Origin: a virus
Length of the DNA stretch: 33,331 nucleotides
Virus record (IMG/VR): IMGVR_UViG_3300025276_000101
Coordinates: 1 to 33,331 of that record
Direction: 5' to 3' (one strand)
This document shows, piece by piece, positions 1 to 21,589 of the stretch (within the stretch, counting starts at the first letter, position 1; each line of letters starts with the position of its first letter). The translations under genes and the position numbers were made by a program. Under the pieces are notes generated by a model. The model was given only the letters and a program-made list of their open reading frames with translations, did not search any database and was not told the origin of the DNA.

Positions 1-139
1 ACGAAGTATCGTTTTGGGCACGATCTAGTAGGTCTTCTTCAAACCCGCGATAGTTTTTGACGTAGTCGTTATATTCGTTGCGTGTAATTTGTGCGTATGT
101 AGCGTCAGGGTTTTTTACGTTCTCCAAAGGGCTGTACAT
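1..139 (-). CDS. Partial late virion-region protein, N-terminus only
   Basis: The first 46 codons of a leftward gene that continues past the left edge. The protein begins MYSPLENVKNPDATYAQ and is rich in Asp, Glu, Asn and Tyr. Its ATG shares one base with the TGA of the gene upstream (TGATG at 141-137), the usual sign of translational coupling in this late operon. I do not recognise the family from this fragment. Its place after the adaptor and virion genes suggests a structural or ejection-related protein, but that is inference from position only. Confidence 0.75.
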   Translation of the reverse strand, partial: MYSPLENVKNPDATYAQITRNEYNDYVKNYRGFEEDLLDRAQNDTS

Positions 140-1845: not shown

Positions 1846-1848
1846 AAA

Positions 1849-2550: not shown

Positions 2551-2560
2551 GGTGTTTTAC

Positions 2561-2941: not shown

Positions 2942-2951
2942 GATTAATACC

Positions 2952-2984
2952 TTTAAAAAAGAAAGCCCCCTCCGAAGAGGGGGC
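2952..2984 (-). terminator. Rho-independent terminator behind the capsid gene
   Basis: On the minus strand an 8-bp GC-rich stem (GCCCCCTC / GAGGGGGC, 2984-2965) closed by a UUCG tetraloop is followed by TTTCTTTTTT. It lies eight bases after the major capsid stop. Together with the promoter near 4358 it makes the capsid gene a largely separate high-output unit; downstream head and tail genes would be served by read-through. Confidence 0.92.
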
Positions 2985-2991
2985 GATAGTC

Positions 2992-4137
2992 TTACTGTGC
3001 GGAGTCTAGAGCGATGATACCGAAGTCCTGTACAGAGCCACTGATGTCGCTGTTGTACCTAGGCTTACGGAGACCAAAGATCTTGCCTACGCTGATACCA
3101 GACTGGTTGCCATAATCGAAAGTATCTTCAACCATTTCAGGCAGACCGATGTCAGCCAGAGCCAGAGCCTGAGCACCACAGAACAGAGCACGTCCACCAA
3201 CTACGTCAGCGTCAGCACCCCACTTGTAGCCAGCTGCGCCAGCGTTAGCTGAAGTACCAGTAGTAGCACCAGAAGTGCTAAACACGTGGCGGAACTCGTG
3301 GATCATCACGCCATCAACCATCAGGCTTGAAGAACCAGCGAACAAGCTGTTGCTTGATCCGCGTACGCCAGCGTTACGAACGTTAGCAATGAAGTCAGTA
3401 TCGAGCTTCAGGTTAGCCATCTGCTGTGGAGTTACAAACATGTGGAAAGTTTCCTGGTTACCAGCACCACGAATACCACGGATGTAGTTGTCTTTAGCAA
3501 AAGCCTTCAGGTTAACGATGTGCTTGTAGCCAAGAGTGTCGCTATCAGTTACAGCAGTAGTATCACCAGCTGACAAGCCAGCGCCGTTGATTCGCAGGTG
3601 ACGATCTGAAGTAGGAGCAGATACGTCTGAAGCGAACTCAAGGTCAACCAACTCGTGTCCAGCAGAACCAGAAACAGTTCGCAGACCACCGTTGTTTTTG
3701 TGAGTGTATGCAACACCAGACATAGACAAGAATGCCAACTGGTCACAACGGTCAGCCATTGCATAAGCAAGAGCGTCGCGTGATTGCTCACGGAAGTTAA
3801 CTACAGTCTTCTGGTCGGTCATACGGCCAGCGATGCGGTTAGCAAAACGTAGTTGATCCAGCTCAATGCTGATGTCATATGCACGTAATGCTTCTTCATT
3901 ACCTTCCAGCGTGTTATCACCGGTGATACCGTCGCCAGTCATATCAGCAAGCAAAGTAATGTTAGCTTTGGTACCTTTTTGATTTTTAGTTAACTCAGTG
4001 ACGCGCTGAACCATAGCGTTAGAGCCGGAACCTGCGAACTGATTAATAAAAGATTGGTTGCGAGCTACTTTCCAGAAGTCGCGTGACCAGGTTTGAAGTT
4101 GGTCGCCAGTAAGCGTACCGAAATTTGTTAAAGCCAT
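2992..4137 (-). CDS. Major capsid protein, N4-gp56 / DUF4043-like
   Basis: A 381-aa protein. Its N-terminus (LTNFGTLTGDQLQTWSRDFW) and the segments SFINQFAGSGSNAMVQRVTEL, ITLLADMTGDGITGDNTLEG and GRMTDQKTVVNFREQSRDAL match the pattern of the N4-gp56/DUF4043 family of HK97-fold capsid proteins. Length fits the family. The C-terminal half carries the A-domain-like part ending in FGIIALDSAQ. AGGAGG stands six bases before the ATG, the strongest ribosome site in the late region. The gene lies after scaffold and two small genes, has its own promoter (4358-4386) and hairpin leader, and is followed by a terminator, as expected for the most abundant virion protein. Confidence 0.93.
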   Translation of the reverse strand: MALTNFGTLTGDQLQTWSRDFWKVARNQSFINQFAGSGSNAMVQRVTELTKNQKGTKANITLLADMTGDGITGDNTLEGNEEALRAYDISIELDQLRFANRIAGRMTDQKTVVNFREQSRDALAYAMADRCDQLAFLSMSGVAYTHKNNGGLRTVSGSAGHELVDLEFASDVSAPTSDRHLRINGAGLSAGDTTAVTDSDTLGYKHIVNLKAFAKDNYIRGIRGAGNQETFHMFVTPQQMANLKLDTDFIANVRNAGVRGSSNSLFAGSSSLMVDGVMIHEFRHVFSTSGATTGTSANAGAAGYKWGADADVVGGRALFCGAQALALADIGLPEMVEDTFDYGNQSGISVGKIFGLRKPRYNSDISGSVQDFGIIALDSAQ

Positions 4138-4351
4138 GATGGCCTCCTATTAAATTGACGAAATAATTTATGCGGCACACGCCGCCTTATCAGCCGACTT
4201 AAAGGAGCGGCTAATCCGTATCTCCGTATCGTGGAGCAACGAACTAGCGCTTATTAACGAGGCGCGACCTCGACAGGTTTTACGCCTTGTGTAGGCGGGG
4301 GATACGTTTTTTACGGCTACGGGCCGACCACATATCGTAGTGGTAGACGTA
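4138..4351 (-). promoter_or_regulatory. Hairpin-rich leader of the capsid mRNA
   Basis: If transcription starts about seven bases after the -10 at 4363-4358, the capsid mRNA carries a leader of about 214 nt. I see a row of stem-loops in it: ACCAC/GTGGT (4327-4344), CGCCT/AGGCG (4283-4297), CGAGG/CCTCG (4258-4272), CTCC/GGAG (4222-4236), AGCCG/CGGCT (about 4192-4212) and GCGGC/GCCGC (4172-4185). A 72-codon open frame on the minus strand here begins upstream of the inferred start of transcription and looks non-coding. Possible roles: mRNA stabilisation or translational control of the capsid gene. No known riboswitch was recognised. Confidence 0.5.
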
Positions 4352-4356
4352 GGATT

Positions 4357-4386
4357 AATATTAGTATAGCTAATATTATAATGCAA
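4357..4386 (-). promoter_or_regulatory. Capsid promoter with overlapping palindromic operator
   Basis: Minus-strand -35 TTGCAT (4386-4381), 17-nt spacer, -10 TAATAT (4363-4358). A palindrome with 9-bp arms, TAATATTAG-TATAG-CTAATATTA (4356-4378), covers the spacer and -10. This is the longest-armed member of the site family described in the findings, and it faces the major capsid gene. Confidence 0.75.
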
Positions 4387-4431
4387 CAGTTAATTCAAAG
4401 GGTTGCTTAAATAATCCATGCCGCTTTGGGG

Positions 4432-4623
4432 TTACTCTATCTCAACACATTCAGAAAAAATAATGACGCTTTTAATCGTCTCTAGGGCAGCTACTTTTTC
4501 ATGCGCAAAAACGAGATCATCATATTGATCAAGAACTGCCTCTAAATCATTATACAAATCATCGTAACTTGAGCGGTGCTCAACAAAATCTTTGTGCATG
4601 CTCAGCTGCTCTATATCAGACAT
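4432..4623 (-). CDS. Small acidic hypothetical protein (63 aa)
   Basis: Unrecognised 63-aa protein, acidic and mostly helical (LYNDLEAVLDQYDDLVFAHE at residues 23-42). AGGGTGA lies a few bases before the ATG, supporting translation. It sits between the DUF6321-like gene and the capsid leader; its stop is some 50 bases before the capsid promoter. Nothing in it points to a function; a minor head or regulatory protein is possible. Confidence 0.55.
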   Translation of the reverse strand: MSDIEQLSMHKDFVEHRSSYDDLYNDLEAVLDQYDDLVFAHEKVAALETIKSVIIFSECVEIE

Positions 4624-4643
4624 AAGTCACCCTGTTATAAATA

Positions 4644-4934
4644 TCACCACTTGGCCTTATTAGCCCAATAGGCCGCGCTCATTTTACCCTTGGAGATGTT
4701 CTTTGCGTGCCGTGCTTTGAAACTAGCGCGCTTTTTCTTCATCTTGTCTGATTCTCCCACCTTGGGTTTGCCAGCAGTCTTAGCGCCTTGCTCACCAAAA
4801 CGAATAGTTTTAATGCGATCACCTTCTTTAGCCACAACAATGTGCGACTTTTTAGGGTGGTTCGGCGTTCTTTTAGGTTTGTTGAAGCCCAAGACTCCAG
4901 CTCGGGCTAATCGTGGGTCTTTTTTAACTGGCAT
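4644..4934 (-). CDS. Small basic head-region protein, DUF6321-like
   Basis: A 96-aa, very basic protein (PVKKDPRLARAGVLGFNKPKR at the start, KARHAKNISKGKMSAAYWAN near the end). Proteins with this start and the ending AAYWANKxKW occur next to scaffold and capsid genes in many marine phages; I recall the family as DUF6321, without known function. The high Lys/Arg content would suit binding to packaged DNA or to the acidic scaffold, but this is inference. It lies ten bases after the scaffold stop, in the same operon. Confidence 0.78.
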   Translation of the reverse strand: MPVKKDPRLARAGVLGFNKPKRTPNHPKKSHIVVAKEGDRIKTIRFGEQGAKTAGKPKVGESDKMKKKRASFKARHAKNISKGKMSAAYWANKAKW

Positions 4935-4944
4935 AGTTACCTCG

Positions 4945-5955
4945 TTATAAAATATCGCCTCTAAGGCGCTTCAATGTTGCTTCAGGCAATGCAGCAAACT
5001 CTTCTTCGGTCATGGTGTCCATGTCAATCCCCTTTTCACCATGATGAGCTGAGCTTTCACCTGGTAATTCTGGTGGTTGGGCCTCTGCTGCCTTCAATTT
5101 CTTGTTAACTTGGGCGCGTTTTTTCGCAACCTCGTCCACGGTGCCAGCTTTTCCAGCCAAACTTGGCGCAGCATCAACGGGCTGATCTAAATCGCGGTCT
5201 TTAACGACGTACTTAACTGCTTTAGAGAGCGCATCTACTGCTTCGTAACCTTTCAAAATGAAAGCATCTCTCAATTCCACAACTTCGGTGGTGTACTCCT
5301 CGTTGAAAGTGTCAGAGTTATGATCAAATTCAGGGTAAGCGTCTTCCATAGCCTTAGCTGCCTGTTGAAGCGCGGTCATTTGGCGGTCTTGGTTGACCGT
5401 CTGATTCATTTCCTGACGCATTTCGTACTCTAGCTGCCCGCGTTCGGCCTGTCGTATCTCCCTGCGGAGCGCAACGGCTTTCTCTGTCTCGCCATCAAGC
5501 ACCATGTTTTGGTACTCAACTTCTTTTGTATCGAAATCGTAAGATTCGGGCGCTTCATCTGTTTTTGCAGCCGCTGCATTTATTTCGTCTAGCTGTTTTT
5601 GCAGTGCTTTCTGCTTTGCCAATACTTCGTCAAGGCGTGCTTTAGGGACCATTGGCTTTTTAGTAGGTTTTTGCTCTACTACTGGTGTTTCTTCAGGCTC
5701 TTCTACCTCTTCATCAAGCTCTGCTTCGGTTTCGGGCTCAGGTTCAGGTTCGGTTTCTGCCGCAACTTCCTCGGTTTCTTCCGTCTCGTCCTCTGCCACA
5801 ACTTCATTTTCTTCAGCAATTTCTTCGGGCTCCTCTTCAGAGGTTTCGAAACTTAAATCTAACGCAGGTGCCTCATCATCCTCGGGGCGGTCAGCTCCGG
5901 GCATTACATCAAACTCAAGTGCTTTTTCTTCTACTGCAGTTTCTTTCTTACTCAT
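4945..5955 (-). CDS. Capsid scaffolding protein
   Basis: A 336-aa protein with the typical layout of phage scaffolds: a very acidic, disordered N-terminus (residues 1-100, long runs of Glu/Asp with Pro), a coiled-coil middle (LDEVLAKQKALQKQLDEINA, about 107-126, then a second helix at 160-220), and a C-terminal part ending in EEEFAALPEATLKRLRGDIL. Scaffolds assemble the procapsid and leave before or during packaging. The ATG directly follows the portal stop (TAAATG), with AGGAG eight bases before it inside the portal gene. Order portal, scaffold, capsid is the standard head-gene order. No protease domain seen. Confidence 0.85.
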   Translation of the reverse strand: MSKKETAVEEKALEFDVMPGADRPEDDEAPALDLSFETSEEEPEEIAEENEVVAEDETEETEEVAAETEPEPEPETEAELDEEVEEPEETPVVEQKPTKKPMVPKARLDEVLAKQKALQKQLDEINAAAAKTDEAPESYDFDTKEVEYQNMVLDGETEKAVALRREIRQAERGQLEYEMRQEMNQTVNQDRQMTALQQAAKAMEDAYPEFDHNSDTFNEEYTTEVVELRDAFILKGYEAVDALSKAVKYVVKDRDLDQPVDAAPSLAGKAGTVDEVAKKRAQVNKKLKAAEAQPPELPGESSAHHGEKGIDMDTMTEEEFAALPEATLKRLRGDIL

Positions 5956-8070
5956 TTAAGAACTCCTATTGTTCCTGGGGGTGTTACTGAATGCCGCTGT
6001 TGCCAACTTAGTTGCAGCGGTGGTTTGTGATTGATTCTCTTTGGAGCTAGCACTCAGATCCGCTAGCTCACGCCGCAGCTCAAGCTGCTGCTCGTTCATT
6101 GCGAGCTTCGCTTGTATCTCTGCCATGCGTACTTGTGGATCTATATCTGTTGTGTCTTGAGTTTTCGCCATGTTTAAAGCAACTTCAGACTGGAGTTTCT
6201 TAACTTCAGCGTCTTGCTTAGCTATTTCAAGCTGCAACTGCTGCATAGCAATTTGTTGCTGCTGTGCCATAGCTTCTTGCTGTTCTGGGGTTGGCGGTTC
6301 TTGGCCAGTCATCTGACGGATACGCTTAGCAAGTTCACCTTTACGTGCCAAGTGACTGTATTCGATGATTGCGTCGTCTGGTACGACAACACCTGCTTGT
6401 CTCAAGCTTAATGCTTCTGCGAATTGTGTCTCGTCGAAGCTGTCTCTAGCTGGAGCAGTAGCTACAATTACATCGTATTCACCAAGTGTAAGATCATTGA
6501 TGACCCGTCCTTCGGGTGTCTCTTGATTGATGACCATCTCTTCGCGAGGCTTGAGGGGGTCGTCTTCGTTAGTCACTTGGATAACGCGCTCCTCGGTATA
6601 AAAGGTCTGGATCAAATTCAGAATCTTCTCTGCAAGGTGTTGGCGAGACTTACGCAGATTATCCAGAGGGACCTGAATCATAATCGCGCCGCGGTTCTGT
6701 TTAGCTTGGATCGCGATACCTGATACCTCTGCGCTGTCCGTGCCTAACATACTGTCGTTCACACCAGAGATAGTTTTGATATTCGCAGCAGCTTTCATTG
6801 CAATACGGTCAAGACCAGTAGGGATCTGATTAGCGCCGATCTTCTGTGGTGGTGTAGTGCCGCGGGCGTATTCGAGAACAAGGCCAGTCTCTGCGCCATG
6901 CTCTTCAAGGTCATCGGCAGTCATACCAACCAATGAGCCTGATTCAACCATCCAACCACTATTAGCTGTAGTATTAACTATATGCAGCTCTTGGCTTGCA
7001 ATTTTATTTAACTGCTCTTGTGGAGACAGAAGATTACGAACCACACCAAATGGGCGTCCTCTGCGGAAGTAGCAGAAGAACGGTATAATCGTAAACTGGT
7101 TGTATGGAGACCAGCCATCATGCAGTACCACTTTGTCACAGGTGACAGTCCACCGAATCTTGCGGATAACCTTACTTACTAACGACAGGTCATACTGCTT
7201 AGCGAACTTTTTGCTCTTAGCTTCAGACCATTCATCAGGTGCTTGCCGCTGGTCACCTGTATTGGGGTCGACGAAGAAAAGCGCACGGCGCAGCTTCTTG
7301 TGCTGGCGCTCGATAACGCGAAGGGCTTTGACGTTGCGGTACTCTTCATCACCAGGGGCACCGGCCCCGAAATAATCGTCGCTTGTTTCGGTAGCTCCGA
7401 AACGGGTCTCCTGATACTCCACGGAGTCAGGCCCGAAGCTCATACCATTCTCGGCTACAAATAGTAGGCGCTCAGCTTTGTCCTTACCGTACAGCTCTTC
7501 GATCTCATCAAGTGTCATCCACTTAGATTCGAATACTTCGTTCCAAGTCTTAGGATCGGCGTCCTTAGCGTCTGGATCAATAAGTATGTCTAACGGATCT
7601 TTGGACGTGATTCGAATCTCACCCTCAACATGGTCGCTGAAGTCCATACGGACATCGAAGTACCCACGACCGTCCATAATCAAACCGTCTGAGAATACTT
7701 GCTGCTCAACCCAGTCCAACTTGTTGCTATCGGATATTTGCATGTACAACTTAGTCAGGGTGTGTGCCACATCCTGCTCTCCACCTCTCCGTGGCTTGAA
7801 CTGGATATCTGCTCTTCGGGTAGACTGCTCACCTAAGATGGTATTAACCGTAGGTAGGATGGTATTAATAGTAAGGGCAGGGCGGCCCTCAGCCTCCAAG
7901 GCTGATTCATCATCTGGGTCCCATTGATCGCCCCGATAATACTCATCACATTTTAGCGCCATCTCTACATAGTCAAGGTGACCGTTGTCGCGTGCGCGCT
8001 CATAGCGAGCCCACTGGGTGCTTGTTATTTCTTCTTCCTTCGCAGGATCTAGTTTCTTTGTCTTTGCCAT
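5956..8070 (-). CDS. Portal protein, P22 gp1-like
   Basis: A 704-aa protein, close to the 725 aa of P22 gp1. The N-terminal segment (YYRGDQWDPDDESALEAEGR, about residues 47-66, then PALTINTILPTVNTILGEQS) is the standard opening of the P22-type portal family. The core contains DPLDILIDPDAKDADPKTW (about 181-199). The C-terminal 100 residues are Gln-rich and coiled-coil (about 605-690), matching the helical barrel of long P22-type portals. The protein forms the dodecameric ring through which DNA enters and leaves. Its ATG is two bases after the TerL stop with no strong ribosome site, so translation is probably coupled. Confidence 0.93.
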   Translation of the reverse strand: MAKTKKLDPAKEEEITSTQWARYERARDNGHLDYVEMALKCDEYYRGDQWDPDDESALEAEGRPALTINTILPTVNTILGEQSTRRADIQFKPRRGGEQDVAHTLTKLYMQISDSNKLDWVEQQVFSDGLIMDGRGYFDVRMDFSDHVEGEIRITSKDPLDILIDPDAKDADPKTWNEVFESKWMTLDEIEELYGKDKAERLLFVAENGMSFGPDSVEYQETRFGATETSDDYFGAGAPGDEEYRNVKALRVIERQHKKLRRALFFVDPNTGDQRQAPDEWSEAKSKKFAKQYDLSLVSKVIRKIRWTVTCDKVVLHDGWSPYNQFTIIPFFCYFRRGRPFGVVRNLLSPQEQLNKIASQELHIVNTTANSGWMVESGSLVGMTADDLEEHGAETGLVLEYARGTTPPQKIGANQIPTGLDRIAMKAAANIKTISGVNDSMLGTDSAEVSGIAIQAKQNRGAIMIQVPLDNLRKSRQHLAEKILNLIQTFYTEERVIQVTNEDDPLKPREEMVINQETPEGRVINDLTLGEYDVIVATAPARDSFDETQFAEALSLRQAGVVVPDDAIIEYSHLARKGELAKRIRQMTGQEPPTPEQQEAMAQQQQIAMQQLQLEIAKQDAEVKKLQSEVALNMAKTQDTTDIDPQVRMAEIQAKLAMNEQQLELRRELADLSASSKENQSQTTAATKLATAAFSNTPRNNRSS

Positions 8071-8072
8071 TG

Positions 8073-9716
8073 TTATGCGCCCATTGCTGATTTAGTGCGT
8101 TCGCCTTTAAGTAATCCAGGGAGCCTATCCCGCCAAGTTGGTACGTGTTCGACCCTTTCAACAAACGTGCTGAACTCAGTCATCATCAAACCAATCCAAG
8201 CTAAAGCGTCTACCTGGTCGTCGTGTACCCCGTTCGGGAAGCGCAATAATTCTGCTACCAGTGGGCCTGTAAATTCTTCATCTCTAGGCATAAACACCAT
8301 GCCCTGTTGCATCCGACCTTGGATTGCTCGTGCTCGAGCTTCTTTATCTCTGCGGCCAGTCTTTAAATCTTTGAAATATGCTTCGTATAACCCACGTTCG
8401 CGGACACGCTTCTCGAGGAACGGTCCGAGGGCCATCTCGATATGCCCTTTCTCGATACCTATGATTGAGGGTTTCCACACCTCGTACATATCTAAGATCT
8501 GCTCAACCAATTCAAACCCATCAAAACGTCCGCGGACCATGTCCACCACAAACAGTTGGTCCTGCTCGTCAACACCTACCACAATACCTACGGTATAGTC
8601 GTTGCGATCGTTCTTACCAATCGCCAAGTCCCACGCGCAGTAGTAACGCATGCGGTCTTCGTCGATCTCTTCACGGTCGTAGTACTGAATCATGCCTCTG
8701 GTGAAATAATCACCATCATCTGCAACAGGATTCTGCTGATACAGTGCTGACCAATCTCTTGGGCCTACCGCTTTTTCTATACGCGCCAGTGCATCTTCGT
8801 CATAGCGCTCACGATGTAGGGCTTCCCCTTGTAGTCGAAACTCTTCGTCAACTTCGGCGCGGGCAGGGTAGTTAACCACTTCCCATTGCTCGCCATTATC
8901 TGCTGCGGCTTTAAGGAGCCGTCCAGCAAGGTCATCGTCGTGCCAGCGAGTGAGAATAACCAACACACCACCACCAGGCGCCAAACGAGTGTAAGCCGTG
9001 GAGGTATACCAATCCCAAGTTGATTCTCTGGCGTTCGCCGATTCTGCGTCATCTCTATTCTTTACCGGGTCGTCGATAACAAGAATATGAGCGCCTTTAC
9101 CAGTAATACCACCGCCAACACCGGCAGCAACATAACCCCCGCCAGTAGTAGTAAGCCACGCTTCAGCAGACTGGGACTGCGGATCAAGGCGCGTTTTGAA
9201 CGCAGATTTAAAGCCCTCTTCGCGTAAGAGTCCGCGGACTTTGCGGCTAAACGCCATTGCCAGAGAGCCTGAGTACGAACAACTAATAAATTCGTGCTCT
9301 GGATTTCTACCCAGATGCCAAGCTGGGAACGCCACCGACGCAAGCGTGCTTTTACCGTGCCTGGGTGGCATAAAGAGCATAAGTCTTGGGCTTTTCTTTT
9401 CAGTGACATCTCTAGAGAACTCCTCTAACCGTTTACATATATCTTTGTGTACCCAACCCGCTTGGTAGTCAGGATTAAACCGTTCCACAAACGGCAATAA
9501 CCGCTTGCGAGTCAGGAACCGCAGAGCGAGTTCCGCGCGTGCCTTTTCCTCTAACGTTTCTTCAACCGTGGGTTCCGGTTCGGGGGCCGTGGGTTGCGGT
9601 TCTTGCTCCGCGATCTCCGCTTTGCAATACACGCAAAGTCGATCATCCCCCGAATACAGTGTCTCGGGGTGCGACGCTTTGCAGCGTATGCATTCGATCT
9701 TTTTGACCTCGGTCAT
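8073..9716 (-). CDS. Terminase large subunit with N-terminal zinc ribbon
   Basis: A 547-aa packaging ATPase and nuclease. Walker A PPRHGKS at residues 117-123; Walker B ILVIDD at 211-216; coupling motif-like LTRW near 255; RNase H-like nuclease acids at D363 (AWDLAIG), E422 (IGIEKG) and D499/D500/D503 (VHDDQVDAL). All key residues are present, so the enzyme should be active. Unusual is the first 45 residues: C9-x2-C12 and C28-x2-C31 form a zinc-ribbon pattern, followed by a Pro/Glu linker (35-55). Most terminases of this type start directly with the ATPase. The ATG follows the upstream TAG without gap. Confidence 0.95.
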   Translation of the reverse strand: MTEVKKIECIRCKASHPETLYSGDDRLCVYCKAEIAEQEPQPTAPEPEPTVEETLEEKARAELALRFLTRKRLLPFVERFNPDYQAGWVHKDICKRLEEFSRDVTEKKSPRLMLFMPPRHGKSTLASVAFPAWHLGRNPEHEFISCSYSGSLAMAFSRKVRGLLREEGFKSAFKTRLDPQSQSAEAWLTTTGGGYVAAGVGGGITGKGAHILVIDDPVKNRDDAESANARESTWDWYTSTAYTRLAPGGGVLVILTRWHDDDLAGRLLKAAADNGEQWEVVNYPARAEVDEEFRLQGEALHRERYDEDALARIEKAVGPRDWSALYQQNPVADDGDYFTRGMIQYYDREEIDEDRMRYYCAWDLAIGKNDRNDYTVGIVVGVDEQDQLFVVDMVRGRFDGFELVEQILDMYEVWKPSIIGIEKGHIEMALGPFLEKRVRERGLYEAYFKDLKTGRRDKEARARAIQGRMQQGMVFMPRDEEFTGPLVAELLRFPNGVHDDQVDALAWIGLMMTEFSTFVERVEHVPTWRDRLPGLLKGERTKSAMGA

Positions 9717-10025
9717 CTATTTCTTTTTCTGTTTCGGCTTCTTTTTCTTACCAAGAGCCATATTTATTAGCGTAGTTCTAGGGGTTAATATTTTTCCGGC
9801 TACTCCACCCCTTTTGCTAAGCTCTTGGGTAAGCCCCTCGTATGGCTTGTAAGGTTTTGGGGCCTTAGCTTTAGGTGTGGCCTTAGCTTTAGGTGTGGCC
9901 TTAGCTTTAGGTGTGGGCTTAGCCTTAGCTTTAGGTGTGGGCTTAGCCTTAGCTTTAGGTGTGGGCTTGGGCTTGGGCCTATCAAAATGTACATAGTGAG
10001 TACGGGATGGTTTTTTAGTAGCCAT
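9717..10025 (-). CDS. Basic PTPKAKA-repeat protein between the terminase genes
   Basis: A 102-aa protein, pI clearly very high. Residues 16-55 consist of five related repeats of the form (K)PTPKAKA or ATPKAKA, followed by KPYKPYEGL and a short folded-looking part (60-92), then a run of Lys (93-102). This resembles the C-terminal tails of histone H1 and of bacterial H1-like proteins, which bind DNA without sequence preference. It sits three bases after TerS and directly before TerL, so it may act during DNA packaging or end recognition. That role is inference; no family was recognised. The repeat DNA could expand or shrink by slippage. Confidence 0.75.
   Translation of the reverse strand: MATKKPSRTHYVHFDRPKPKPTPKAKAKPTPKAKAKPTPKAKATPKAKATPKAKAPKPYKPYEGLTQELSKRGGVAGKILTPRTTLINMALGKKKKPKQKKK
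9864..9964 (-). repeat. Short tandem repeats in the basic protein gene
   Basis: Five units of CTTAGCTTTAGGTGTGG (plus-strand reading) start at 9864, 9882, 9900, 9924 and 9948, with spacings of 18, 18, 24 and 24 bases. All spacings are multiples of three, so changes in unit number keep the reading frame. Confidence 0.9.
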
Positions 10026-10027
10026 AT

Positions 10028-10543
10028 TTAATCGCTCTTAGGTTCGAGGTAGTCGAGGTCTTTACCTGCAATCTTCAACAAGTCTTCGTCAGTCATACGT
10101 TCGAGCTGCTTGGTACCATTAATATTGATATTTACTTGGGTAGCGTTCTCAGGTGCAGCCAAACCGTGTAGCTTGACCAGTGAATCGGTGGTGTTCTTCA
10201 TTTCAGTGGCGTTTGCCGAGGTGTTATAGGCTTCCATATACATCATATGGGCATGCTGATTGGTGAATTTCACCTCTTCGCGCATCTCTTGGCGAAAATA
10301 GTCGATAGCCTTTTGTACTTCGGGGACTTTTGCAGCGGCGTAGGTTGCCTGGGGGGACGAGTATCCCGCACCACGACCCGCGGCCGCGGTTGTCATTCCA
10401 GAAGCGATCAGCGAGACCAGCTTTTCTTGCTGCATGGTTAGCGATCCGCGGCTTATGCCCATGTAGGGCATATGCGATTGGAATTCTGTATGTTCACTAA
10501 CGAGGTCAGTGGATTGTGGTTCCTGGGTATGCGCTTGTTCCAT
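10028..10543 (-). CDS. Terminase small subunit
   Basis: A 171-aa protein. Residues 37-75 (LTMQQEKLVSLIASGMTTAA, then GRGAGYSSPQATYAAAKVP) carry the helix-turn-helix layout of Terminase_2-type small subunits, which recognise the phage packaging site and pass DNA to TerL. A helical middle and a short beta segment (TQVNININGT, about 140) would form the oligomer. The start at 10543 is preferred over upstream ATGs at 10558 and 10561 because only it has an AAGAG-like site before it; it overlaps the upstream gene by 38 nt. Next to it lie the basic repeat gene and TerL. Start is uncertain, the family call is fairly safe. Confidence 0.82.
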   Translation of the reverse strand: MEQAHTQEPQSTDLVSEHTEFQSHMPYMGISRGSLTMQQEKLVSLIASGMTTAAAGRGAGYSSPQATYAAAKVPEVQKAIDYFRQEMREEVKFTNQHAHMMYMEAYNTSANATEMKNTTDSLVKLHGLAAPENATQVNININGTKQLERMTDEDLLKIAGKDLDYLEPKSD

Positions 10544-10772
10544 AGAACTCTTGGTCATCATCAAAATACACAAACACAGGTGCGCCATCGAACTCTCTCG
10601 ATGCTACATCTGCGATCCATTCTTCGGCGTACTCTTCGGAGAAGCCGTTGGCGATTATGACTGCGACGGCTGCATAGTAGTCATAGGCGAGTACATCACA
10701 ATCGTTCACCACTGCGGTGCCAATAATTGCAGCGTCTAAACCTGCAATAGATACTACTTCAACGTCCGACAT
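10506..10772 (-). CDS. Acidic hypothetical protein opening the late operon (88 aa)
   Basis: Unrecognised acidic protein of 88 aa. The N-terminal half is hydrophobic and Ala/Val/Ile-rich (DAAIIGTAVVNDCDVLAYDY, about 13-32); the second half has many Glu and aromatic residues (EEYAEEWIADVASREFDGAP). It is the first gene of the leftward late transcript. The ATG lies only six bases after the inferred -10, so the transcript would start at or next to the start codon: either a leaderless message, or a start I have misplaced. There is no Shine-Dalgarno sequence. It overlaps the terS start by 38 nt. Confidence 0.62.
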   Translation of the reverse strand: MSDVEVVSIAGLDAAIIGTAVVNDCDVLAYDYYAAVAVIIANGFSEEYAEEWIADVASREFDGAPVFVYFDDDQEFYGTSAYPGTTIH

Positions 10773-11304: not shown

Positions 11305-11525
11305 ATTTTTTCAGAAATTTTTTTTCAAAAGTACGTTTATATCGCTCATCGACTATCTCCCCCCCTGCCTAGTCACGGACCCCCAACCCCGGATCACGAA
11401 CATGGAACCTTGTTCTCGATTCACGGGCAGGGACCCCTACACGATTTCTCGTACCTCGAATTCGGTCGGTTATAAATTTGAAGCGGTCGAATGGTTCGAT
11501 CGCACAATTATTGGAGGGCATTCAC
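11294..11525. other. Non-coding divergence region, C-rich patches
   Basis: About 230 bases without a supported gene, between leftward late genes and the rightward early genes. The left part is A/T-rich with long T runs (11294-11340). The centre has a C7 run near 11358 and two copies of GGACCCC (about 11375 and 11435), in a region otherwise of mixed composition. An inverted repeat TCGAA-TGG-TTCGA lies at 11487-11499. The rightward promoter for 11526 must be here or upstream, but I found no convincing -35/-10 pair. A packaging site near terS is possible, not shown. Confidence 0.4.
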
Positions 11526-12328: not shown

Positions 12329-12547
12329 ATGAAACTACAAACAATCACAGCTAAAACAAAGTTCAAGTCATTCATCAACGATCCACGCACCAAGAAAGCC
12401 GTGTCCTTTGCCAAGGACAACTGGCGCGAGATCGCTGTCTTCGGCGCTTTGGCGCTAATCGTGGACGACCTAGATACGGCGGCCGACGTAGCAGAAGCAT
12501 CCTTAACACTAGACGTCATTACAGCAACCACTGAAGGAGTTATCTAA
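12329..12547 (+). CDS. Small protein, DDLD paralogue 2 (72 aa)
   Basis: Unrecognised 72-aa protein. Basic first half, then a hydrophobic stretch with VDDLDTAADVAEAS (about residues 45-58). This matches the layout of the protein encoded at 11873-12085 (hydrophobic run, DDLD, acidic helix), so the two are probably paralogues. AGGAG six bases before the ATG (within ACTAGGAG). The stop overlaps the next ATG (TAATG). Confidence 0.62.
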   Translation: MKLQTITAKTKFKSFINDPRTKKAVSFAKDNWREIAVFGALALIVDDLDTAADVAEASLTLDVITATTEGVI

Positions 12548-12729
12548 TGAATACCTCTGATAAGTTCGAAACATGCTTCGACCCCGCGCCAAGGCGCGTG
12601 GGCCGCAGCCCACGAATCGCGCGCAATAAAGCAGAGCTCAAGATGATTGAGCAACGCTACATACGCATGGGATTCGATGCTCGCGAAGCACGATTCAAGG
12701 CCTACACCTACCACAGCATGAAGCTATAA
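12547..12729 (+). CDS. Small basic hypothetical protein (60 aa)
   Basis: Unrecognised 60-aa protein, rich in Arg and Lys (PRRVGRSPRIARNKAELKMI, about residues 15-34) with a helical C-terminal half (RMGFDAREARFKAYTYHSMK). Coupled to the upstream gene by TAATG. The composition would fit nucleic-acid binding; it is the last clear gene before the repeat array. Confidence 0.58.
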   Translation: MNTSDKFETCFDPAPRRVGRSPRIARNKAELKMIEQRYIRMGFDAREARFKAYTYHSMKL

Positions 12730-12741
12730 CGGAGAAAGCCC

Positions 12742-13146
12742 ATGAAAAAACTTCGATACGTTGTCCGTGGATCACGGTCCGTGGCCCGCGCTTCGGATAA
12801 ACAGGTGTGTGACGGGATTGAAAAATGTGTGACGGGATTATTCTCAATTCCGTCACACACAATTATGTTGTATATCAACAACTTAGCGCAATGTGTGACG
12901 AGTGTGACGAGTGTGACGGCATTTCTAAGTTGTATTTACAACTTCTCAAAAACAGCTTTTTATTTTTTAAAAAGAACTTTAACTCAAAAATCCCGTCACA
13001 CACGTCACACATCTCTACAACCCGCATGTTTGCTGGGTTTTTACCCTCTCAATCCCGTCACACATCCCGTCACACATTGCTCACACATGGGGTCAATCCC
13101 GTCACACATTCAAAAAATGTGGTCTTTTACGGACCGCGAACCATGA
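12742..13146 (+). CDS. Doubtful open frame through the repeat array
   Basis: A 134-codon frame with a good GGAG ribosome site, beginning MKKLRYVVRGSRSVARASD. After about 20 residues it only reads the repeats (VTSVTSVT, SRHTRHTS, NPVTHPVTH), which looks like chance translation of non-coding DNA. It could still be a short leader peptide or, as with lambda O, an initiator gene containing its origin, but no initiator domain is visible. Reported at low confidence. Confidence 0.15.
   Translation: MKKLRYVVRGSRSVARASDKQVCDGIEKCVTGLFSIPSHTIMLYINNLAQCVTSVTSVTAFLSCIYNFSKTAFYFLKRTLTQKSRHTRHTSLQPACLLGFYPLNPVTHPVTHCSHMGSIPSHIQKMWSFTDREP
12806..13108. repeat. Iteron-like array, candidate replication origin
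   Basis: Forward units TGTGTGACGGGATT at 12806 and 12826 (20-bp period); inverted near-copy AATTCCGTCACACA at 12846; three tandem GTGTGACGA/G units at 12893, 12902 and 12911; inverted units AATCCCGTCACACA at 12989, 13051 and 13095, with shorter inverted copies at 13003, 13065 and 13080. A very A/T-rich stretch (about 12920-12990) lies between forward and inverted groups and contains the hairpin AAGTTGT-ATTT-ACAACTT. Arrays of this form bind replication initiators; the A/T-rich part could be the unwinding element. No initiator gene is recognised nearby, so the origin call is inference. Confidence 0.7.
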
Positions 13147-13153
13147 ATCATGA
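13143..13153. repeat. CATGAATCATGA repeat, copy 1
   Basis: ATGAATCATGA preceded by C. The same 12 bases occur at 25853-25864 and 29225-29236. This copy lies 35 bases after the last unit of the iteron-like array. Confidence 0.6.
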
Positions 13154-13185
13154 GCCATATATCACGGTTCGTGATTACCTGTAAA

Positions 13186-15701: not shown

Positions 15702-15889
15702 GCCGCATGCCGTGTCGCGTGAGCGACGACCCAAGTTACGACTACAGCGATTACATCGAAGAGGACGGCTATTACAAGCTGCCCATAAAAACCAACCATG
15801 AAGGATTGATCGATATACTCGAATTACCCACAGGACCACTAACCCAAACTCAAGTAGGAGATGAAAATGAGGACAATCAAACCGACTGA
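15698..15889 (+). CDS. Small acidic hypothetical protein (63 aa)
   Basis: Unrecognised 63-aa protein, very acidic, Tyr- and Asp-rich at the start (SDDPSYDYSDYIEEDGYYKL, about residues 9-28). GGAGG nine bases before the ATG. Its end overlaps the AAA ATPase start by 23 nt and includes that gene's ribosome site, so the two are coupled. Confidence 0.6.
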   Translation: MSRMPCRVSDDPSYDYSDYIEEDGYYKLPIKTNHEGLIDILELPTGPLTQTQVGDENEDNQTD

Positions 15890-16865
15890 TCTGTTAACTG
15901 AGATCAAAGCCAACGCACTAGCACAAGTGCCAACCATGATCTGGGGCGGCCCCGGTCTAGGTAAATCGCAAATCGCGTACCTCGCATCAAAACAACTAAA
16001 CGCTAAGCTCTTTGAGCTGCGCGCGAACCTGTTTGATCCAGTCGATGTTCGCGGTGGACTAAAAGTTGTCGAGCAAGAAGACGGCACATACCGCACCAGG
16101 TACGGTGTGCCCGAAGATTATCCACCCTCTGACTACGAAGGAACCGTTGTTCTTTTAATCGACGAACTGCCAAATGCACCCAAAGCTACGCAAAATGCAC
16201 TGCTGCAATTAATCCTTGACCGCAAGATCGGCACTTACGAGCTACCACGCGACACAATTATTATTGCCGCTGGTAACCGCGCACAAGATCGAGCCGCGGT
16301 TCACGAAATGCCAACGCCAGTCAAGAACCGCTTTGCGCACTATACCTTAGAAGCAAACATTGACGACTGGGTAGCGTGGGCCGTGAACAATAACATCGAT
16401 CCATCAATCGTGAGCTTCCTGCGTTACCGCCCAGGACTGCTGCACAGTGTCGATTCTACTCAGAATGCATTTCCAACACCGCGTGCCTGGGAGATGCTCA
16501 ACCGCAAATTACCCTTTATGGCAGACGAGTTCTACGGCTGCGCATCGTTAGTTGGTGACGGCCCTGCCGGGGAATATATGTCATTCAAAGCGATTTATCA
16601 GGATGTACCTGATATCGATGACATTCTCGACAAGCCAACCACTACTAAAGTACCAAACGGTACGTCCGTGTTGTACGCCATCTGTGGTGCACTAACGAGT
16701 CGCGTCGACCAAAATAATTTCGAAGCGATTATGAAATACGCGAAGCGCATGCCACCTGAATACCAGGTGATCGTGGTTCGCGACTCACTCGCGAAAGATC
16801 GTAATCTCATAAACTCTGAGCACTTCACAAAGTGGACTCAGGAAAACGCAGACGTACTTCTATAG
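15867..16865 (+). CDS. MoxR-type AAA+ ATPase
   Basis: A 332-aa ATPase. Walker A GGPGLGKS at residues 27-34; Walker B LLIDE at 96-100; sensor-1 Asn at 137 (IIIAAGNR); an Arg-finger candidate R155 (PVKNRFAHY); a C-terminal helical lid with RPGLLHSVDSTQNAFPTPRAW. This is the MoxR/RavA branch of AAA+ proteins, which remodel or load metals into partner proteins and usually act with a VWA-domain protein. Such a partner lies three genes downstream (17688-18785). The start at 15867 has AGGAG at six bases; an ATG at 15861 would touch the ribosome site. Confidence 0.88.
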   Translation: MRTIKPTDLLTEIKANALAQVPTMIWGGPGLGKSQIAYLASKQLNAKLFELRANLFDPVDVRGGLKVVEQEDGTYRTRYGVPEDYPPSDYEGTVVLLIDELPNAPKATQNALLQLILDRKIGTYELPRDTIIIAAGNRAQDRAAVHEMPTPVKNRFAHYTLEANIDDWVAWAVNNNIDPSIVSFLRYRPGLLHSVDSTQNAFPTPRAWEMLNRKLPFMADEFYGCASLVGDGPAGEYMSFKAIYQDVPDIDDILDKPTTTKVPNGTSVLYAICGALTSRVDQNNFEAIMKYAKRMPPEYQVIVVRDSLAKDRNLINSEHFTKWTQENADVLL

Positions 16866-16875
16866 GAGAAATACC

Positions 16876-17550
16876 ATGGCTTCAGTAAGAATAACCCACA
16901 GCATAAGAGAGGAAATTTCCTCAGAAGCGGAAAGGGCTTACAAACTAGCACACCCTGACCCAAAAGCTAGCACAGAGCTTGTTTCTTTAGTTAAACAAGC
17001 TATACAAAATAGCCCACAACAAAAATTTCTACACCACTGCTTAGAAAAGAGCGTAGAAATGGGCATTGATAAGCAAAAAGGCGGTGAGCTTTTAACGCCG
17101 AAAAAATTCGACAATACAAGCATTAGGTTACAGCGCACTGTAGAAAACGGTACGTGTGATATTACGTTTAATACCCCCATAGAGTATCTAGCTAAAGAAA
17201 ATACCACATGGTATGGAAGCACGGATATCTATATCGATAACTTAGCCCCCCAAGATCAGCCAGAAATACTTGATCTTTTCTTGAAATTAAAGGAGGACCA
17301 AAGAGAACATCAATCTAACTCGTATAATTATCGCCACTCAATAAGAGACCTGTTGAATAAATGTACAACATTAAAACAGTTGTTCGAAATCTGGCCTGCT
17401 GCTGAGTCACTGGTTAACCAAAAGTATATCCAAAAGATGCACACCAAGGTAACCCGGATTAAACGTGCAGAGCAGATCAAAGAAGAGATCAACTTTGACC
17501 CCACTGTTGCTAACCAAACAGTACTCACCGCAAAAATGTTAGGGGCCTAA
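16876..17550 (+). CDS. Hypothetical protein, possibly Nmad5-like (224 aa)
   Basis: A 224-aa protein. The opening (VRITHSIREEISSEAERAYK) and the late motif TLKQLFEIWPAAESLV (about residues 166-181) resemble the Nmad5 family, named as associated with nucleotide modification in phages, but I cannot be sure from sequence alone. A central beta-rich part (RLQRTVENGTCDITFNTPIE) lies between. TAGGAG is about nine bases before the ATG. It lies between the MoxR ATPase and the VWA protein and may be the client or adaptor of that pair. Alternative: an unrelated helical phage protein. Confidence 0.6.
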   Translation: MASVRITHSIREEISSEAERAYKLAHPDPKASTELVSLVKQAIQNSPQQKFLHHCLEKSVEMGIDKQKGGELLTPKKFDNTSIRLQRTVENGTCDITFNTPIEYLAKENTTWYGSTDIYIDNLAPQDQPEILDLFLKLKEDQREHQSNSYNYRHSIRDLLNKCTTLKQLFEIWPAAESLVNQKYIQKMHTKVTRIKRAEQIKEEINFDPTVANQTVLTAKMLGA

Positions 17551-17551
17551 T

Positions 17552-17704
17552 ATGCCAACCCGTGATGAATTACTTATTCTGTACGCTTTAGCCGTGGCCA
17601 CACGTCAAAATACTGACTATGTTGACACGGTTGATACAGCAGAAGAAATCGTCGATTACTTAATTGGAAAACTTGAGGTGAAACCTAATGGCAGCAGAAA
17701 GTAA
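17552..17704 (+). CDS. Small hypothetical protein in the MoxR operon (50 aa)
   Basis: Unrecognised 50-aa protein beginning MPTRDELLILYALAVA, helical, acidic in the middle (DYVDTVDTAEEIVDYL). TAGGGG lies seven bases before the ATG. It overlaps the VWA gene start by 17 nt and carries that gene's ribosome site, which supports translation of this short frame. Confidence 0.6.
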   Translation: MPTRDELLILYALAVATRQNTDYVDTVDTAEEIVDYLIGKLEVKPNGSRK

Positions 17705-18785
17705 CATGTTCAAAGCTCGGGCCCAGCTGCTAATGGAACAGCCGTTTTTTGGCACATTAGCGCTACGCCTAAAGCTGGTACAAGACGATGAGAACTGTGA
17801 TACAGCCGCTACCGATGGTACGCGGCTTATTTATAACTCAAAATTTATCGATAAACTCGACAACGTAACGCGCAAAGGACTTATTGCGCATGAAGTCATG
17901 CACTGTGTCTTTAATCATATGACGCGTCGTCAGGAGCGGGATTCCAAAATATGGAACATCGCCACTGACTACGCCATTAATATTCATCTGGAAGATTGCG
18001 GCTTCGTTCTACCCGAAGGGGGTCTTGTTGATAAACAATTCACTGATATGACCGCTGAAGCGATCTACAACCAGATCAAAGATGACCCACCTAAGCAGTG
18101 CCCGTGGGGCATGGTCCTAGATGCAGGTGCTGGCCAAATCGAGGGCGGCAGTAACGCTGCTATGGAATCCGAGTGGCAAGTGGCTGTAACGCAAGCCGCT
18201 GAAGTTGCAAAAAATGCAGGCAAAATGCCCGGTAGCATGCAGAAATTTATCGAGGACATTATCAAACCCGTCGTTGATTGGCGGACTGTACTGTGGCCAT
18301 TCTGTACGTCGCTTACTAACGACGACTACAGCTGGCGCAAACCGAACCGCGCTTATATCAGTGAAGACGAATACCTGCCTGCTATGTATAACGAAGCTGC
18401 AGGTCATATTGCAGTCATCATTGATTCGTCCGGTTCATGCGCTAATTATTGGGAACAGTTTATTGGAGAGATAGCTGCAATTCATTCAGAGCTACGACCT
18501 GAACAAGTCACTGTTATCCACTGTGATTACAGCGTACAACACACTGACGAAGTCATGCCTGACGACGAGTTCCCCAAGACACCTATTACAGGTGGCGGTG
18601 GTACAGCTTTTACACCCGCGTTTAACTATATCAATGAGCACTACCCGGATGTAGCCGCTGCTGTGTATCTAACAGATCTGGAATCAAATGAGTTCGGAGA
18701 GCAGCCACATTACCCAGTTCTATGGGTATCGACAACACGCCTCGAAGCGCCCTGGGGGCAAACGGCGCATATACAATTGCCCTAA
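17688..18785 (+). CDS. Metallopeptidase-like / VWA-like protein (DUF2201 type)
   Basis: A 365-aa protein with two visible parts. The N-terminal part has HEVMH at residues 68-72 followed by DYAINIHLE, a zincin-like motif. The C-terminal part is VWA-like with a complete MIDAS: D245-x-S247-x-S249 (IIDSSGS), T305 (GGGGTAFTP) and D329 (YLTDLE). This combination is that of the DUF2201 putative metallopeptidase/VWA family, often paired with MoxR ATPases. Both metal sites look intact. GAGGTGA before the ATG. It ends the operon; the next promoter starts 11 bases after its stop. Confidence 0.85.
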   Translation: MAAESNMFKARAQLLMEQPFFGTLALRLKLVQDDENCDTAATDGTRLIYNSKFIDKLDNVTRKGLIAHEVMHCVFNHMTRRQERDSKIWNIATDYAINIHLEDCGFVLPEGGLVDKQFTDMTAEAIYNQIKDDPPKQCPWGMVLDAGAGQIEGGSNAAMESEWQVAVTQAAEVAKNAGKMPGSMQKFIEDIIKPVVDWRTVLWPFCTSLTNDDYSWRKPNRAYISEDEYLPAMYNEAAGHIAVIIDSSGSCANYWEQFIGEIAAIHSELRPEQVTVIHCDYSVQHTDEVMPDDEFPKTPITGGGGTAFTPAFNYINEHYPDVAAAVYLTDLESNEFGEQPHYPVLWVSTTRLEAPWGQTAHIQLP

Positions 18786-19382: not shown

Positions 19383-19573
19383 TGAATACAAAAGAATACT
19401 TTGAAGAACGAGATGGTTTAGAGAACGATGGTATAAACCCAGAGTTCCATACATTTGCCGCAGCGTGGATACGCTCTCAATCACCTTATTTATACAGTGA
19501 CCTCATAGCAAGCTTTAAACAAATCGAAGCTGAAATCTATGCACAAAATGAGTGTAACGGGGCATCTTTCTGA
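19382..19573 (+). CDS. Small acidic hypothetical protein (63 aa)
   Basis: Unrecognised 63-aa protein with a helical second half (SDLIASFKQIEAEIYAQNEC, about residues 39-58). The ATG at 19382 has AGGAG (within ACTAGGAG) at six bases; a GTG one codon earlier is possible. Its TGA overlaps the polymerase ATG, so polymerase translation is coupled to it. Confidence 0.6.
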   Translation: MNTKEYFEERDGLENDGINPEFHTFAAAWIRSQSPYLYSDLIASFKQIEAEIYAQNECNGASF

Positions 19574-21375
19574 TGCTCGTAACTCTCGACTTCGAAACCT
19601 ACTTCGACAGCAAATTATCGCTTACCAAAATGACCACAATGGACTACGTCGCACACGAGAAGTTTAAAGTGTGGGGCGTAGGCATCAAGATCAATAACGA
19701 TGACACAGAGTGGTTCGGTGAAGACGAAGCGGAAGCCGCGATCCATGAGATCAACTGGGGCGACGCAACCCTGGTATGCCACAACACGCCTTTCGATGGG
19801 TATATCCTTACGCAGCATTACAAAGTAATACCAAAGTATTATATAGATACGGCTGCAATGAGTCGCGGGCTATTCCCTGGACAAAGCGCCCGACTTAAAG
19901 ACTGCGCTATACGGTCATTTCCTGATGATGACACCATGCGCAAAGGCGACGAGCTTATCGATGCCAAGGGCGTCTATGACCTTGACCCCGAAACAGAAGA
20001 GGCCTTGGCGGGCTATTGCATACAAGACGTTGATCTTACCTACGCTCTTTATAATCTAATGCTTAACCCGATGCCGCAAACAGAGATGGATCTTATAGAC
20101 CTAACCTGCCGTATGTTCTGCGAGCCAAAGCTGGTCGTGGACCGCGAAGCACTAATCACGTTCCGTGACAAAACTATCGCAGCCAGTGAAGCAGCCATTG
20201 AAGCCGCTGGTATAGACCGTAAAGTGCTATCAAGTAACAAGATGTTCCCAGAACTGATCGAATCACTCGATATTGTAGTGCCAACAAAAGTTAGCCCTAC
20301 CACCGGCAAGAACATCCCAGCTCTTGGTAAAAACGATAAGGCATTTACCCAGATGCAACAGATGTATCCCCAACATCAGCATATATGGGCCGCTCGAAAA
20401 GCAGTAAAGAGTCGCATCAACGAGACCAGGGCGCAACGCTTCATCGACGCAACGCACGACGACGGCACTATTTCTGTTCCTCTCCGTTACTACGCAGCCC
20501 ACACCGGGCGGTTCGGTGGTACAGAAAAAATTAACATGCAGAACATTCCACGCAACTCCCCATTACGACTGGCATTGTGTGCCCCAAAAGGCAAGCTCGT
20601 CTATGTCGCTGATTTATCGAACATTGAAGCTCGCATGCTTGCTTGGCTTGCAGACGAGCAGAGCTTACTACAACAGTTTAGAGACGGAGACGATATCTAC
20701 TCTAATCTAGCGTCGATTATCTATGACAGGCCTATTAACAAGACTGACGATCCAACAGAACGATTCGTAGGGAAGACCGCAGTACTCGGGCTTGGCTATG
20801 GTATGGGCGCTCCTAAGTTCCAGACTACATTAGAAGCAGGCGCCATGGGCCCGCCCATGAAGTTCACCACCAACGAAGCTTATGAAGTAGTAAATACATA
20901 TCGTAATACCTACTCAGGTATACCTGCGCTGTGGCAGAAACTTGAACTAAAACTAGCGAACACTATTAATCCAGCATACAACGAAGAGTGGTGTGGGTTA
21001 ACCTTTAAGGGCCGAAAGATTGCTTTGCCTAACGGCCTAGCGTTGCATTACAACAACCTCCGGTTCGAAGGTGGAAAGCTGACTTACGACTCACGTAGTA
21101 CAGAAACGACCTGGGGCGGACGTATCGCAGAAAACATCGTACAAGCTCTGTCCCGTCTTATTGTTACTGACGCAATGCTCCGTATACAAAATGACAAAGA
21201 GCTAGATGCAGATGTTGTACTTACTGTACACGATGAGATCGTTTTAATTAGCAATACTAATAATCCTGATGCTACAATGGATAAACTTATTGCACATATG
21301 TGCACCCCACCGAGCTGGGCTCCAGATATACCTCTGGATGCTGAAGGCGGTTATGACATTCGATATAGCAAGTGA
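19573..21375 (+). CDS. DNA polymerase, family A, with 3'-5' exonuclease
   Basis: A 600-aa replicative polymerase. Exonuclease motifs are complete: D6/E8 in LDFET, D in CHNTPFDGY (about residue 76), and YCIQDVDLTYAL (about 139-150). Polymerase motif A is VADLSNIEARMLAWLAD (about 345-361), motif B lies around RFVGKTAVLGLGYGM (about 397-411), and motif C is VLTVHDEIVL (about 547-556) with the catalytic HDE. The enzyme is compact, as in podovirus polymerases. It should copy the phage genome together with the primase-helicase downstream. All key residues are visible. Confidence 0.95.
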   Translation: MLVTLDFETYFDSKLSLTKMTTMDYVAHEKFKVWGVGIKINNDDTEWFGEDEAEAAIHEINWGDATLVCHNTPFDGYILTQHYKVIPKYYIDTAAMSRGLFPGQSARLKDCAIRSFPDDDTMRKGDELIDAKGVYDLDPETEEALAGYCIQDVDLTYALYNLMLNPMPQTEMDLIDLTCRMFCEPKLVVDREALITFRDKTIAASEAAIEAAGIDRKVLSSNKMFPELIESLDIVVPTKVSPTTGKNIPALGKNDKAFTQMQQMYPQHQHIWAARKAVKSRINETRAQRFIDATHDDGTISVPLRYYAAHTGRFGGTEKINMQNIPRNSPLRLALCAPKGKLVYVADLSNIEARMLAWLADEQSLLQQFRDGDDIYSNLASIIYDRPINKTDDPTERFVGKTAVLGLGYGMGAPKFQTTLEAGAMGPPMKFTTNEAYEVVNTYRNTYSGIPALWQKLELKLANTINPAYNEEWCGLTFKGRKIALPNGLALHYNNLRFEGGKLTYDSRSTETTWGGRIAENIVQALSRLIVTDAMLRIQNDKELDADVVLTVHDEIVLISNTNNPDATMDKLIAHMCTPPSWAPDIPLDAEGGYDIRYSK

Positions 21376-21378
21376 CCC

Positions 21379-21567
21379 ATGCCAAGACTAGTGTTAACAA
21401 GAAAGATCAATGAGCAAGTCATTATCCATGGTGATGACGGTATTCTGACGAAAGTTAAAGTCTCTAAAATAGACAGAAACCAAGTCCGGCTTACATTTGA
21501 AGCTGGCGAAGAAATCAGGATTGATCGGCAGGAAGTATTTGATAAAAAAAATAATTCTATTAAATAA
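21379..21567 (+). CDS. csrA: CsrA/RsmA-family RNA-binding regulator
   Basis: A 62-aa protein, the same length as bacterial CsrA. It opens PRLVLTRKINEQVIIHGDDG, matching the LILTRKxxExxxI strand; then VKVSKIDRNQVRLTFEA; then EIRIDRQEVF. The key RNA-contact residues correspond to R8 (LTR) and R50 (DRQE). CsrA dimers bind ANGGA, often in hairpin loops over ribosome sites, and change translation or stability of mRNAs. A phage copy may act on host metabolism or on phage messages, several of which carry ACTAGGAG ribosome sites. It lies three bases after the polymerase stop with no strong ribosome site of its own. Confidence 0.9.
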   Translation: MPRLVLTRKINEQVIIHGDDGILTKVKVSKIDRNQVRLTFEAGEEIRIDRQEVFDKKNNSIK

Positions 21568-21589
21568 AATAGCTCTGTAGGAGGAGCCG

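Follow-up and report, generated by a model that had tools for sequence, protein, structure and literature searches.

The two-sided iteron array at positions 12806-13108 is likely to serve this phage as its replication origin, with the primase-helicase (gene at 21590-24091) binding there by means of a C-terminal winged helix. It very probably belongs to the SF3 helicase-initiator kind of origin, in a variant that has a fixed scaffold, a fast-changing sequence tag and a distance of 8-11 kb to the initiator gene. The stretch of DNA analysed (the window) is the entire IMG/VR virus record IMGVR_UViG_3300025276_000101, 33,331 bases in length. The elements of the array region are as follows.

12806-13108, two-sided iteron array, candidate replication origin (repeat counts; layout kept in relatives)
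12806-12814, plus strand, iteron L1, TGTGTGACG (repeat match)
12826-12834, plus strand, iteron L2, TGTGTGACG (repeat match; 20 bp after L1)
12851-12859, minus strand, iteron L3, the sole inverted copy of the left group (same offset kept in relatives)
12873-12885, plus strand, perfect IHF consensus site TATCAACAACTTA (WATCAANNNNTTR) on the left side of the array
12892-12918, plus strand, three tandem iterons with a 9-bp period, cores at 12894, 12903 and 12912
about 12919-12993 (75 bp), A/T-rich centre, candidate unwinding element
12927-12944, perfect 8-bp hairpin AAGTTGTA-TT-TACAACTT (this genome only)
12994-13011, minus strand, two tandem inverted iterons with a 9-bp period
13012-13046, conserved non-iteron block, CTACAACCCGCATGNTTGCTGACTTTTTAC-like (alignment with relatives)
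13056-13064, minus strand, iteron R3
13068-13076, minus strand, iteron R4
13079-13087, minus strand, degenerate twelfth iteron GCTCACACA (relatives have a good copy at that position)
13100-13108, minus strand, iteron R5

The TGTGACG/CGTCACA core occurs 11 times without mismatch between 12808 and 13106 and 12 times in the entire window. Because the direct tandem copies are spaced by 9 bp, the iteron was taken as the 9-mer TGTGT-NNNN, in which NNNN is GACG in all 11 copies of the array. When the densest 310-bp cluster of any 7-mer was sought, it had 11 copies in the array and 5 in the remaining window, and none of 60 Markov shuffles gave more than 5. For the full 14-mer, 10 matches with up to 3 mismatches were observed against 2.5 expected, a number reached in none of 100 shuffles. 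A first-pass annotation of this DNA had described at least 11 copies or part-copies within 303 bases, which agrees with the 11 exact cores and the degenerate one, and its 20-bp (12808/12828) and 9-bp (12894/12903/12912) periods in the left group are present. The copies were said to be forward on the left and inverted on the right; overall they do face the centre, but the left copy at 12851-12859 is inverted. In the right group, a pair spaced by 9 bp (12994/13003) is followed by spacings of 12 and 32 bp.

An A/T-rich stretch between the two iteron groups had also been noted, and the region at about 12919-12993 is indeed 72-80% A/T. Alignment shows that such a centre is also present in relatives, in many of which it is bounded by AAGTTC ... 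GAACTT, and that a block CTACAACCCGCATG..GCTGACTTTTTAC to the right of it is kept. The central hairpin that the same annotation pointed out has a perfect 8-bp stem, but it is absent from the aligned relatives and was rejected as a conserved element. The perfect IHF consensus WATCAANNNNTTR occurs at the same places in 20 of 34 arrays; the number expected by chance is 0.5 when estimated on the flanks and 0.7 when estimated on shuffles. Iteron-type origins often, but not obligatorily, contain DnaA boxes or sites for host architectural proteins. No DnaA box was found in the window; a perfect DnaA box TTATCCACA adjoins the array in one clade only (L319, L263, L266, L321 and L327). The GC skew of the window was uninformative as to the start of replication. 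Short repeats far above chance, an adjacent A/T-rich region and a host IHF site are features of iteron-type origins, and all three are found here. Counting against an origin bound by the primase-helicase is the position of the array, 8.5 kb upstream of the helicase gene and not adjoining it.

An open reading frame spans the array (12742-13146), and it was not counted as a gene because its frame closes early in the related contig L053. Imperfect palindromes on GTGGATCACG / CACGGTTCGTG are dispersed at 12765-12785, 13130-13178 and about 11369-11521; they also surround the arrays of relatives and resemble small mobile or REP-like repeats. When the array region was compared at the nucleotide level with annotated phages, no match was returned.

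Late genes occupy the minus strand of the record (about 139-10588), and early genes lie on the plus strand. The genes and domains that bear on the interpretation of the array are listed here.

19573-21375, plus strand, family A DNA polymerase (PF00476, E 3e-33; conserved synteny; common replication operon with the primase-helicase)
21590-24091, plus strand, primase and SF3 helicase (DUF5906 / VapE-like), proposed initiator (PF19263, E 4e-20; PF05272, E 5e-7)
23771-24010, plus strand, predicted C-terminal winged-helix domain (residues about 728-807), proposed iteron reader (AlphaFold, mean pLDDT 90)
30464-31042, CI-like HTH protein (domain search)
31521-32591, tyrosine integrase (domain search)

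A Xis-like HTH protein is also encoded in the record. The operon of polymerase A, a CsrA-like 62-aa protein and the helicase (19573-24091) is kept in nearly all relatives, and the presence of a CsrA-like regulator within a replication operon is unusual. A MoxR-like AAA ATPase and DUF2201 metallopeptidase/VWA pair at 15861-18785 is kept in many relatives, and a small Lys/Pro/Ala-rich gene at 9717-10025 is built of PKAKA(T) repeat units.

Relatives were gathered by protein searches with the helicase and with the 260-aa early protein at 13490, as well as by repeat searches, which gave well over 100 related viral contigs. The arrays of the family were reached mostly through protein homology rather than through the repeat, and the repeats were then detected de novo. 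Their iterons are situated at near-identical offsets of about 0, 20, 44 (inverted), 87, 96 and 105, followed by the centre and by copies at 189, 198, 250, 262, 273 and 293. Absence from close relatives was one of two findings that would have refuted the reading of the first-pass annotation, and the two-sided array was found in 24 of the 24 family genomes whose interval is fully covered; in all of these the sequence upstream of the helicase extends for at least 11 kb. One further family genome of that length, G044, is probably cut off, because under 1 kb separates its end from the array-flanking gene. The gene order from the array to the integrase is largely common to the relatives, and the array lies 8-11 kb upstream of the conserved primase-helicase. 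In the genome collection, a more distant relative, a MAG with a 48%-identical helicase, had no array that we could find in its helicase region, and a plasmid search for terminase-free carriers gave one weak match.

Although the layout is fixed, the sequence of the iteron is not. The TGTGT half is constant, and NNNN is nearly uniform within most arrays and differs between relatives. The window shares GACG with L053 and L012, and other arrays carry AGCA (L061, L066, L096), GCCA (L104, L148, L116), GCGC (L138, L140, L141, L147), GCAG (L120, L265-L267), ACCA (L113), TCCA (L304), GACA (L272, L273), ACAC (L109) or ACGC (L152). Among twelve arrays of the same layout, NNNN is 88% identical in same-type pairs, and in different-type pairs the identity is 40% for NNNN, 56% for the spacers and 74% for the TGTGT half; sorting the pairs by tag lowers the 40% figure by construction, but with all pairs pooled it is near 46%, still below the spacers. 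The tags therefore vary more than the sequences between the copies. In the interpretation favored here, TGTGT is the constant half of the site, and the four bases that follow would act as a specificity tag, different from one related phage to another.

Some arrays carry more than one tag. In G009 (L133 55-385) and G061 (L323 7955-8340), GCCA is found on the forward copies and GTCA on the inverted copies, and the arrays of G049 and G051 mix GCAG with GACG. The array of G015 (L144 1675-1995) is chimeric, with TGTGTCA(G) (tag GTCA) on the left and TGTGTGCAG (tag GCAG) on the right, and it looks as if it had been recombined at the A/T-rich centre. Such mixed and half-swapped arrays, taken together with the agreement within arrays, indicate that the tags are rewritten in concert and sometimes by half.

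The first-pass annotation had stated that no known initiator gene lies nearby. This statement has to be revised, as the likely initiator is the conserved gene at 21590-24091, 8.5 kb downstream. Its product matches the profile of the C-terminal helicase region of the NrS-1 primase-polymerase in the PDB with an E value of 2e-36. Fold matches were obtained to NrS-1, poxvirus D5/E5, AsfvPrimPol, SaPI PriRep1 and the SaPI5 primase-helicase, with modest whole-model TM-scores. The protein thus appears to be an SF3 helicase-primase fusion, of which the primase part is predicted through the fold matches only. For its last 134 residues, a winged helix is predicted with high confidence (pLDDT 90), and the best structural match of this domain is the C-terminal end of NrS-1 (residues 622-718) with a Z score of 6.9, the next entry being at 3.7. 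Foldseek alone gave no match for the C-terminal domain at E <= 0.001.

If the winged helix reads the tag, the two might be expected to change together. With overall identity held, the partial correlation between winged-helix identity and tag similarity is 0.16-0.25, and other segments of the protein reach equally high values. The wing and the C-tail have a partial r of about 0.24 and the recognition helix is also weakly positive, neither being unique among the segments. In a small sample of related sequences, the columns associated with the tag are 775, 777, 785 and 805, which map to the recognition helix, the wing and the last strand of the predicted fold. Tags differ even between helicases that are 86-88% identical to that of the window; therefore, a switch of tag would take few substitutions in the helicase, unless a different protein is the reader.

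The latter alternative, in which the array is the origin but its iterons are read by some other phage protein that brings in the helicase, is unlikely but is the best of the competing explanations. The candidate would be another early protein or the 60-aa basic protein encoded at 12547-12729, which adjoins the array and carries the motif YxRxG[FY]xxxE[AS]RxKA. In addition to the tag changes between such similar helicases, the weak co-variation with helicase residues speaks for this alternative, as does the presence of the small protein beside the array in most of the close clade of the window. However, recognizable relatives of the small protein occur only in that clade, and none was recognized beside the arrays of other clades, so that it was rejected as a universal iteron binder. 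The factor common to all array-bearing phages, including the unrelated ones, is the DUF5906-type helicase, which has a predicted winged helix of its own. Of the two binders proposed in the first-pass annotation, the primase-helicase is accordingly the favored one.

The association with this helicase extends to phages outside the family. Two tandem TGTGACG iterons were looked for in 2.9 million viral contigs and were present in 54 records, 2 of which belong to the family of the window. The other 52 were divided by iteron orientation after the records had been seen: of the 27 whose copies run both ways, 16 have DUF5906, as against 3 of the 25 whose copies all run the same way (Fisher p = 5e-4). 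It was the DUF5906 model that proved useful on the array records, the Pfam VapE model giving few matches. The array starts between -49 and +81 bp from the 3' end of the helicase gene in 9 of 10 outside-family records inspected. When helicase-bearing phage records were searched for their strongest repeat cluster, it was a two-strand array in 5 of 7 (phiR18, NrS-1, Mcat4, LP.1 and KT1), and in 4 of these 5 the array adjoins the helicase gene. The iterons of NrS-1, LP.1, KT1 and phiR18 are of other types than TGTGACG. In phiA008 and in the searched part of KpV52, which have related helicases, no array was found; like the lack of one in the MAG, this speaks against the helicase-bound origin proposed here.

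The dense array of NrS-1 (L224 17061-17440) is built of GGTTACACTTT and directly follows the primase gene; no mention of these repeats was found in the NrS-1 literature cited here. The initiation motif of the NrS-1 polymerase is TTTGGTTA (PMC8718748). It occurs once in the NrS-1 record, at 17198-17205 inside the array, and since one exact match per 37 kb is expected by chance, it is its position within the array and not its occurrence that carries weight. This is the sole experimental link, and it comes from a distant relative.

Other functions of such an array were considered. Lambda cosB likewise combines repeats with IHF, and a packaging site (cosB/pac-like), with repeats for the terminase small subunit, is a very unlikely identity for the array. 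A probable packaging gene cluster (8073-10588) does lie about 2-3 kb away, and the NrS-1 array sits between the primase and the terminase small subunit. A packaging site would nevertheless leave the link to the helicase unexplained, including the arrays that touch helicase 3' ends in unrelated records, and it fits poorly with eleven two-sided copies flanking an A/T-rich centre and with the primer-initiation motif inside the NrS-1 array. A role in early control, as an operator for the CI-like protein or a similar regulator, is slightly less probable still. The array is in the early operon upstream of 13284 and a CI-like HTH gene is encoded, but the copy number is far above that of a usual operator, the two-sided symmetry, A/T-rich centre and IHF site argue against one, and the arrays recur with helicases and not with repressors. 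Operators of CI-like proteins are palindromic, from which the 9-bp asymmetric direct tandem repeats differ. Finally, arm sites of an attP bound by integrase or Xis with IHF can be dismissed almost entirely: the genome has a tyrosine integrase and a Xis-like HTH protein, and lambda attP has arm sites and IHF, but the integrase gene is 18 kb from the array, and arrays occur in large records (completeness not established) without a detectable integrase (G009, 56 kb; G055, 50 kb; G048, 43 kb).

The reading of the array as an initiator-binding origin, already put forward in the first-pass annotation, is thus supported by the kept layout, the IHF site, the A/T-rich centre and the recurrent link to a DUF5906-type helicase in unrelated phages. 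We infer origin activity, as well as binding, melting and the role of the helicase rather than another protein as tag reader, and propose the following mechanism. The primase-helicase would bind the iterons through its C-terminal winged helix, and host IHF would introduce a bend in the DNA that separates the left iterons. The protein assemblies formed on the two sides, facing in opposite directions, would then open the A/T-rich centre (75 bp) and be loaded as SF3 helicase rings, after which synthesis would be started by the primase part of the same protein together with the phage family A polymerase.

Several known systems share parts of this arrangement. SaPI origins have two iteron sets flanking an A/T-rich region. 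In the SF3 initiators SaPI Rep and Cch2, the iterons are read by the C-terminal domain, and the SaPI origin is located at or after the 3' end of the helicase (rep) gene (PMC7581432). SaPI Rep/PriRep is similar to the window protein in being an SF3 helicase initiator with an AEP primase and a C-terminal domain that reads short iterons, which is predicted here, and the fold search with the window protein returned the PriRep1 and SaPI5 primase-helicase structures. In contrast to the SaPI origin directly downstream of rep, the array of the window lies 8.5 kb upstream, in a phage with its own polymerase, and its family has 9-mer TGTGT-NNNN iterons, an internal IHF site and rapid tag swaps on a fixed layout.

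NrS-1 is the closest solved relative (E 2e-36; C-terminal Z 6.9) and also has a dense two-strand array after the primase gene, with the initiation motif inside it (PMC8718748), but the iteron GGTTACACTTT and the layout differ. The NrS-1 polymerase is the only DNA polymerase of that phage (PMC7102993), whereas the phage of the window additionally encodes a family A polymerase. The P4 alpha protein is likewise a primase-helicase with a C-terminal winged helix, which has been shown to bind the origin repeats in P4 (PMC4234260) and is predicted to do so here; the P4 primase is of the Toprim type, and the repeat sequence and layout are different. In the PLE satellites of Vibrio cholerae, the DNA-binding domain of the initiator RepA and the iterons are swapped together between relatives (PMC8263062). 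RepA is, however, a RepA_N initiator without a helicase, and the exchange is of whole modules, unlike the tag swaps in the family of the window, where four bases change in concert and the layout stays fixed. The nearest cultured relatives, the Pseudomonas phages phiR18 and KPP25 (Kochitakasuvirus), have 31% identity in the helicase, 50% in the major capsid protein and 40% in the terminase. They also carry a two-strand array, in an intergenic region 11 kb away from the helicase gene, but with a TGTTACGA-like iteron, an irregular layout and no IHF consensus that could be found.

These results provide a candidate origin and a likely initiator for a large group of uncultured marine phages. They also suggest a role for DUF5906, a domain of unknown function in Pfam, which through the link between helicase and array extends to other phages. 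We tentatively propose, with somewhat less than even confidence, that a large and mostly uncultured phage lineage maintains a fixed origin scaffold on which the four-base tag diversifies rapidly. The tag would be rewritten in concert across the ~11 copies, with mixed-tag arrays as intermediates, and the winged helix of the matching initiator would co-evolve with it, giving a natural specificity code. The driving force would be the need to shut out co-infecting relatives, satellites or nucleases that target origins. The fixed layout with its swapped tags would then represent a natural experiment in which the specificity of an initiator changes without breaking the origin.
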